A DNA stretch of 64,000 nt from positions 992,001 to 1,056,000 of the forward strand of contig NZ_JABFBC010000001.1 of assembly GCF_013093415.1 (NCBI RefSeq), written 5' to 3'. The notes under the pieces were generated by a model. It did not search any database and was not told the origin of the DNA. It saw only the letters and a program-made list of their open reading frames with translations. The position numbers and the translations under genes are program-made. Shown piece after piece: positions 35,675 to 36,242 of the stretch; within the stretch, counting starts at the first letter, position 1; every line of letters starts with the position of its first letter. Source of the DNA: Halovulum dunhuangense. GTDB lineage: Bacteria > Pseudomonadota > Alphaproteobacteria > Rhodobacterales > Rhodobacteraceae.

Positions 35675-35707
35675 ATCTGTCCCGTTCGGTTCGTTTCCGG
35701 GACAGAT
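35675..35707 (-). promoter_or_regulatory. Stem covering the ribosome site of the PCu(A)C gene
   Basis: ATCTGTCCCG at 35675-35684 and CGGGACAGAT at 35698-35707 are perfect complements with a 13-nt loop. On the mRNA the second arm contains GGGACAG, the only Shine-Dalgarno-like sequence, one base before the ATG. The stem would block translation unless opened; alternatively it is a DNA operator. Confidence 0.55.
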
Positions 35708-35773
35708 AGGGCGCGCCGGTCGGCCACCGCAACGCGACGCCGTCGCGCTGCGGCCGGATGACGCAAGCCTGGG

Positions 35774-36163
35774 TTACTGCGCGTTCGCTTCCAGCCACGC
35801 CCTCAGGAAGGCGATTTCTTCTTCCTGGGCGGCGATGATCTCCTGCGCGAGGGCCTTCAGTTCCGCGTCCTCGCCGTATTCCAGAACGATCCGCGCCATG
35901 TCGATCGCGCCCTGGTGGTGCGGGATCATGCCCTGGGCGAAGTCCACGTCCGGATCGCCCGTCAGGTCCGTGGTCATGTCGGCATGCATGCGGTTGTTGG
36001 CCTCGATCAGGGCCTGCGTCGCCGGGTTGGGCGCCGCTTCCATCGCGTGACCGGAATGGTCCATTGCGCCCATGGCGTGGCCCGAATGATCCTGGGCCTG
36101 TGCCCCAAGCGCGGCAAGGCTGACCAGCGCGGTCGCCGTGATCCGAAATGTCCGGTTCTTCAT
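35774..36163 (-). CDS. DUF305 copper-binding periplasmic protein
   Basis: DUF305 protein (129 aa), a ferritin-like helical family linked to copper handling. A signal peptide ends near GAQA/Q. It is followed by a His/Met-rich stretch with two HSGHAM repeats and the family core GMIPHHQGAIDMARIVLEYG. The ATG at 36163 is eight bases from GGAG; the ATG at 36169 is too close. A CueR-type dyad lies about 55 bases upstream, supporting copper control. Confidence 0.9.
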   Translation of the reverse strand: MKNRTFRITATALVSLAALGAQAQDHSGHAMGAMDHSGHAMEAAPNPATQALIEANNRMHADMTTDLTGDPDVDFAQGMIPHHQGAIDMARIVLEYGEDAELKALAQEIIAAQEEEIAFLRAWLEANAQ

Positions 36164-36211
36164 CTGCATGCTCCGTTCATTGGTGGTGCATTGCGCACCC
36201 CTGCGGCGAGG

Positions 36212-36242
36212 CAGATGGGGCTTCCCCCTGCTGGAAGGTCAA
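36212..36242 (-). promoter_or_regulatory. CueR/MerR-type copper promoter for the DUF305 gene
   Basis: On the minus strand, -35 TTGACC (36237-36242) is followed by a 19-base spacer holding the dyad ACCTTCC-N7-GGAAGCC (36219-36239), then CATCTG (36212-36217) as -10. The long spacer and CCTTCC-N7-GGAAGG-like dyad match the operator of copper-responsive CueR; one position deviates. No cueR gene is in the window. Confidence 0.65.

Follow-up and report, generated by a model that had tools for sequence, protein, structure and literature searches.

A predicted CueR-type promoter upstream of a DUF305/CopM-family gene in Halovulum dunhuangense, with sister sites at copA-cueR and copZ

The window, a 64,000-nucleotide stretch of the Halovulum dunhuangense genome, carries a DUF305/CopM-family metallochaperone gene and, 101 bases past its stop codon on the same strand, a PCu(A)C copper chaperone gene that matched Pfam and no NCBIfam family (Table 1). 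The DUF305 domain still bears the Pfam label 'unknown function'. The protein scored 67.6 bits against PF03713 (cut-off, 27) and 119.7 bits against the CopM family NF049983 (cut-off, 90), and it is short and secreted-looking, with two DHSGHAM repeats, as the HSGHAM repeats of the initial annotation had indicated, plus MIPHHQGAIDMA, which contains a His-His (HH) pair. The first in-frame ATG, at 36169, would give 131 aa; the ATG at 36163 (129 aa) is the likelier start because a GGAG seven bases before it lies, by eye, at the proper distance. From this start codon to the CATCTG hexamer there are 48 nt, close to the 50 bases first estimated. Upstream lie yidD and rnpA, together with an rpmH-like ORF recognized by eye.

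Table 1. Features of the DUF305-PCu(A)C locus (positions in the window)
Feature	Position	Strand	Basis or remark
PCu(A)C copper chaperone gene; no other PCuAC match in the genome	35200..35673	-	Pfam
Perfect 10-bp inverted repeat ATCTGTCCCG-N13-CGGGACAGAT	35675..35707	-	z -4.05
GC-rich stem-loop, no T-run after it	35710..35769	-	Folding z -4.03 for the whole gap
DUF305/CopM-family metallochaperone gene	35774..36163	-	Pfam PF03713, NCBIfam NF049983
Probable ribosome-binding site GGAG	36171..36174	-	By eye
-10 element CATCTG	36212..36217	-	Sequence
Spacer, 19 nt	36218-36236	-	Sequence
CueR/HmrR-type operator ACCTTCC-N7-GGAAGCC, inside the spacer	36219..36239	-	Sequence; consensus in excerpts of PMC1526738
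-35 element TTGACC	36237..36242	-	Sequence; hexamer and register recur at the genome's copA and copZ promoters

The arrangement described initially, TTGACC and CATCTG on the minus strand enclosing a spacer with the ACCTTCC-N7-GGAAGCC dyad, was exact to the base (36242-36212). The arms of the dyad are 5 bp each (CTTCC/GGAAG), and its symmetry is lost at the right arm's two outermost bases, CC in place of GT; set against CCTTCC-N7-GGAAGG, the site has CCTTCC and GGAAG exactly, with a final C where the consensus has G. A TTGAC-type -35 element with a 19-bp spacer, as in CueR/HmrR promoters, is likewise present, and its spacer explains why a generic sigma-70 scan with a spacer limit of 18 did not report this promoter. 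CATCTG matches TATAAT at just 2/6 positions. It fits the -10 pattern of family CueR sites (Y-A-T-S-T; n = 30), in which A at the second position (28/30), T at the third (20/30), and T at the fifth (24/30) prevail, by its A at the second and T at the fifth position. According to excerpts of PMC1526738, the published signals are ACCTTCCC-(5)-TGGAAGGT for CueR and ACCTTCCAG-(3)-CTGGAAGG for HmrR. TTGACC, the 19-bp spacer, and the ACCTTCC-N7-GGAAG dyad resemble the promoters of these regulons (E. coli copA and cueO; actP-hmrR operons), whereas the right arm reads GGAAGCC here and GGAAGGT there, and the target here is a DUF305/CopM gene located apart from the copA locus.

The exact pattern TTGACCTTCC-N7-GGAAG occurred once in the window with 0 mismatches and only 3 times in the whole 3.66-Mb genome, compared with about 0.007 matches expected by chance (arithmetic for 15 fixed bases on both strands). 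The genome scan proposed in the initial annotation thus yielded two further copies of the dyad, both on the minus strand, one before copZ (C1:1747367) and the other before copA (C2:876952), where cueR lies directly behind copA as in actP-hmrR-type operons. Across the family, the exact pattern was found in 79/199 genomes. When 29 family loci and the 3 loci of this genome were inspected, with downstream genes named from protein starts, a gene for a copA-like ATPase, copZ, cueR, or a multicopper-oxidase-like protein lay directly downstream at 23 of the 29 family exact-site loci, the six without a clear downstream gene (L074, L083, L086, L094, L095, and L098), where the reading frame was chosen wrongly or not at all, being scored as misses.

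Could the site be a chance or relic sequence without function? Matches with three mismatches do come close to chance level, both in the window (3 observed against 1.28 expected at <=3 mismatches) and genome-wide (85 against 58 for the control), and such loose counts are uninformative by themselves. The window site, however, is an exact match on the correct strand and at the correct distance before a copper gene, its extended GGAAGCCCCATCTG tail recurs at the copZ site, and exact backward matches numbered zero among the matches listed for the 199 genomes, all of which makes a functionless sequence highly improbable. It is comparably hard to credit that a different MerR-family metal regulator (CadR/PbrR, ZntR, or MerR) uses the site; a long-spacer promoter with a dyad between the boxes is common to all of them (PMC1526738, in excerpt), but in the excerpted text of PMC5045206 the combination of C5/C6 and Lys14 is characteristic of CueR, G5/T6 and Glu14 being found with MerR and CadR-PbrR, and the sister sites stand before copA-cueR and copZ. 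The reading of the site as CueR-type had depended on a cueR homologue in the genome, and two proteins exceed the curated CueR cut-off (TIGR02044). Residues 13-14-15 of the recognition helix are Ala-Lys-Thr in the copA-linked CueR and Val-Lys-Met in a paralogue on contig C3. According to excerpts of PMC5045206, operator base 3 is linked to residue 13, T occurring with Ala and C with Val, and base 8 is linked to residue 15, A occurring with Met; we placed the paper's numbering on CCTTCC as bases 1-6 by inference from its table. In our sample of 16 loci having both CueR and operators, Met15 went with A8 in 20/22 sites, Val13 with C3/G16 in 2/2, and Thr15 with G8 in 2/2, there being just two Thr15 loci. 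The second CueR (C3:4485-5221, locus L037) is accompanied by two operators of the form TTGACCCTCC-N7-GGAGG, one before its own gene and one before a 65-aa ORF. Both of these operators have C at position 3, an apparent shift in operator specificity of the C3 protein that is in line with the published residue-base rule as excerpted. Binding of the window site by this second CueR, also or alone, would place DUF305 in its set of targets; the C3 protein scored 162.9 bits, above the CueR cut-off, and shares Lys14 with the copA-linked protein. We consider this improbable, given that its own two sites are unlike the window site and that, as a published tendency in the excerpts, Val13/Met15 go with C3/A8 operators, T3 and G8 being found instead at each of the three CTTCC sites. 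The Ala13-Lys14-Thr15 helix of the copA-linked CueR fits the operator bases T3/C6/G8, and from the residue-base rule and the differing sites of the C3 paralogue, this CueR is the one most likely to act at the window site.

Relatives of this DUF305 protein were mostly alphaproteobacterial. DUF305 was not matched in either of the two other genomes of the genus that were searched, so the site cannot be traced at this locus within the genus, and family and named genome collections were used for comparison instead. A same-strand site (<=2 mismatches) was present within 700 bp upstream at 32/80 named DUF305 loci, which are not 32 independent events because near duplicates are included (identical rows for L100/L101 and for L105/L107; L138/L154 nearly so), and by our own count the site was exact at 15/80; the reversed pattern gave 1 match at these 80 loci over both strands. 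A frequent layout among the 32 was cueR-copA divergent from copZ-DUF305, and the genera with a site included Paracoccus, Gemmobacter, Natronohydrobacter, Shinella, Nitratireductor, Pelagibacterium, Telmatospirillum, Aureimonas, Pseudomonas, and Xenophilus, among others. In the family sample, a same-strand upstream site was counted by hand at 5/30 DUF305 loci, our own included. CueR control of DUF305 thus appears, from the 32/80 named and 5/30 family loci, to be recurrent but not general. In G117 (L067), DUF305 and DUF3833 share one stretch, in which neither a site (<=3 mismatches) nor a PCu(A)C match was found. CueR-type sites before or near DUF305 were also seen outside the alphaproteobacteria, at L162, L173 (Pseudomonas sp. 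GD04091), and L179 (Xenophilus).

We therefore favor, with a probability of about 0.92, a CueR (HmrR)-controlled promoter that drives the DUF305 gene alongside copA and copZ. The two CueR homologues and the copA-cueR and copZ sister sites support the operator and promoter as first annotated, and with the exactness of the site, its sister copies, two encoded CueR proteins, the fit of the helix residues to this operator, and the recurrence of such sites before DUF305 in other genera, each observed directly, copper/CueR control of this gene is very likely on genomic grounds. Counting against it are the right arm, imperfect past GGAAG, the weak -10 element, and the lack of a site at most family DUF305 genes. 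By analogy with the known family, the CueR encoded behind copA would bind the CTTCC-N7-GGAAG dyad within the over-long 19-bp spacer, and the Cu(I)-bound protein would distort the DNA so that RNA polymerase could use TTGACC/CATCTG. The predicted result is that a secreted, copper-binding protein of the DUF305/CopM type is switched on along with the CopA exporter and the CopZ chaperone, the inducer, the export, and the copper binding being likewise taken from that family.

The CueR homologue of Rhodobacter sphaeroides is reportedly RSP_2889 (Peuser, 2011). CueP of Salmonella belongs to a protein family other than DUF305/CopM. According to excerpts of PMC4335983 and PMC7558416, it is a CueR-induced periplasmic copper-binding protein, and the DUF305 product resembles it as a predicted CueR-induced copper-binding protein outside the cytoplasm. 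Synechocystis CopM, a copper-induced DUF305 protein that is both periplasmic and extracellular and binds Cu, is of the same protein family (NF049983), and copper induction is predicted here as well; our protein differs from it in its single short domain, and its gene in the CueR-type promoter. Going by excerpts, earlier publications already describe this class of promoter, its regulator, and the copper-related role of DUF305/CopM (PMC1526738, PMC5045206, PMC4335983, PMC7558416, and PMC8456105). New here is the placing of this gene in the predicted CueR regulon, along with a preference for one of two CueR proteins as its regulator and a tally of DUF305 genes that have a CueR site upstream; no link between DUF305/CopM and CueR/MerR appeared in the searched titles and abstract openings, with RegPrecise and most subscription papers lying outside this search. 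The predicted regulon assignment (copA-cueR, copZ, and DUF305/CopM) is firm and testable, and the finding of DUF305/CopM genes downstream of CueR sites across many genera of proteobacteria speaks for a function of the family in defence against copper.

PCu(A)C is normally tied to cytochrome oxidase assembly, and it was present in 196/199 family genomes. The initial annotation held that this gene was probably co-induced with DUF305, which is stronger than the locus warrants. In favor of that view, the two genes share a strand, and a terminator scan found no T-run terminator in the 101-nt gap. A single copper-induced operon nevertheless falls a little short of even odds in our estimation, because the gap contains two strong hairpins and PCu(A)C probably, as we infer, has start signals of its own. 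The inverted repeat stops one base short of the PCu(A)C ATG and may hide its ribosome-binding site; no second copy of it was found genome-wide at <=3 mismatches. Also bearing against an operon is the genus-mate G002, whose version of this locus runs yidD-[unknown ORF]-PCu(A)C-DUF3833, with neither DUF305 nor the site, and neither was found at any of the 29 other PCu(A)C loci within 3-kb stretches, so that adjacency of DUF305 and PCu(A)C was seen in this genome only. In the other genus-mate, G001, yidD is followed by ttcA. Judging from very few genomes, PCu(A)C was probably at this locus first, and DUF305 with its promoter joined it later. A more elaborate scenario, in which the CueR promoter and DUF305 settled by PCu(A)C in this species alone and imposed copper-excess control on it, with the hairpin tuning the signal, seems unlikely. 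In a same-genus genome (L181:1748-2134, plus strand), an ORF of 116-128 aa lies between yidD and PCu(A)C, at the position that DUF305 occupies in the window species. It carries the Cys/His motifs ICGGHNT and CEACRL and is without a Pfam match, as is the unknown ORF that precedes PCu(A)C in G002.
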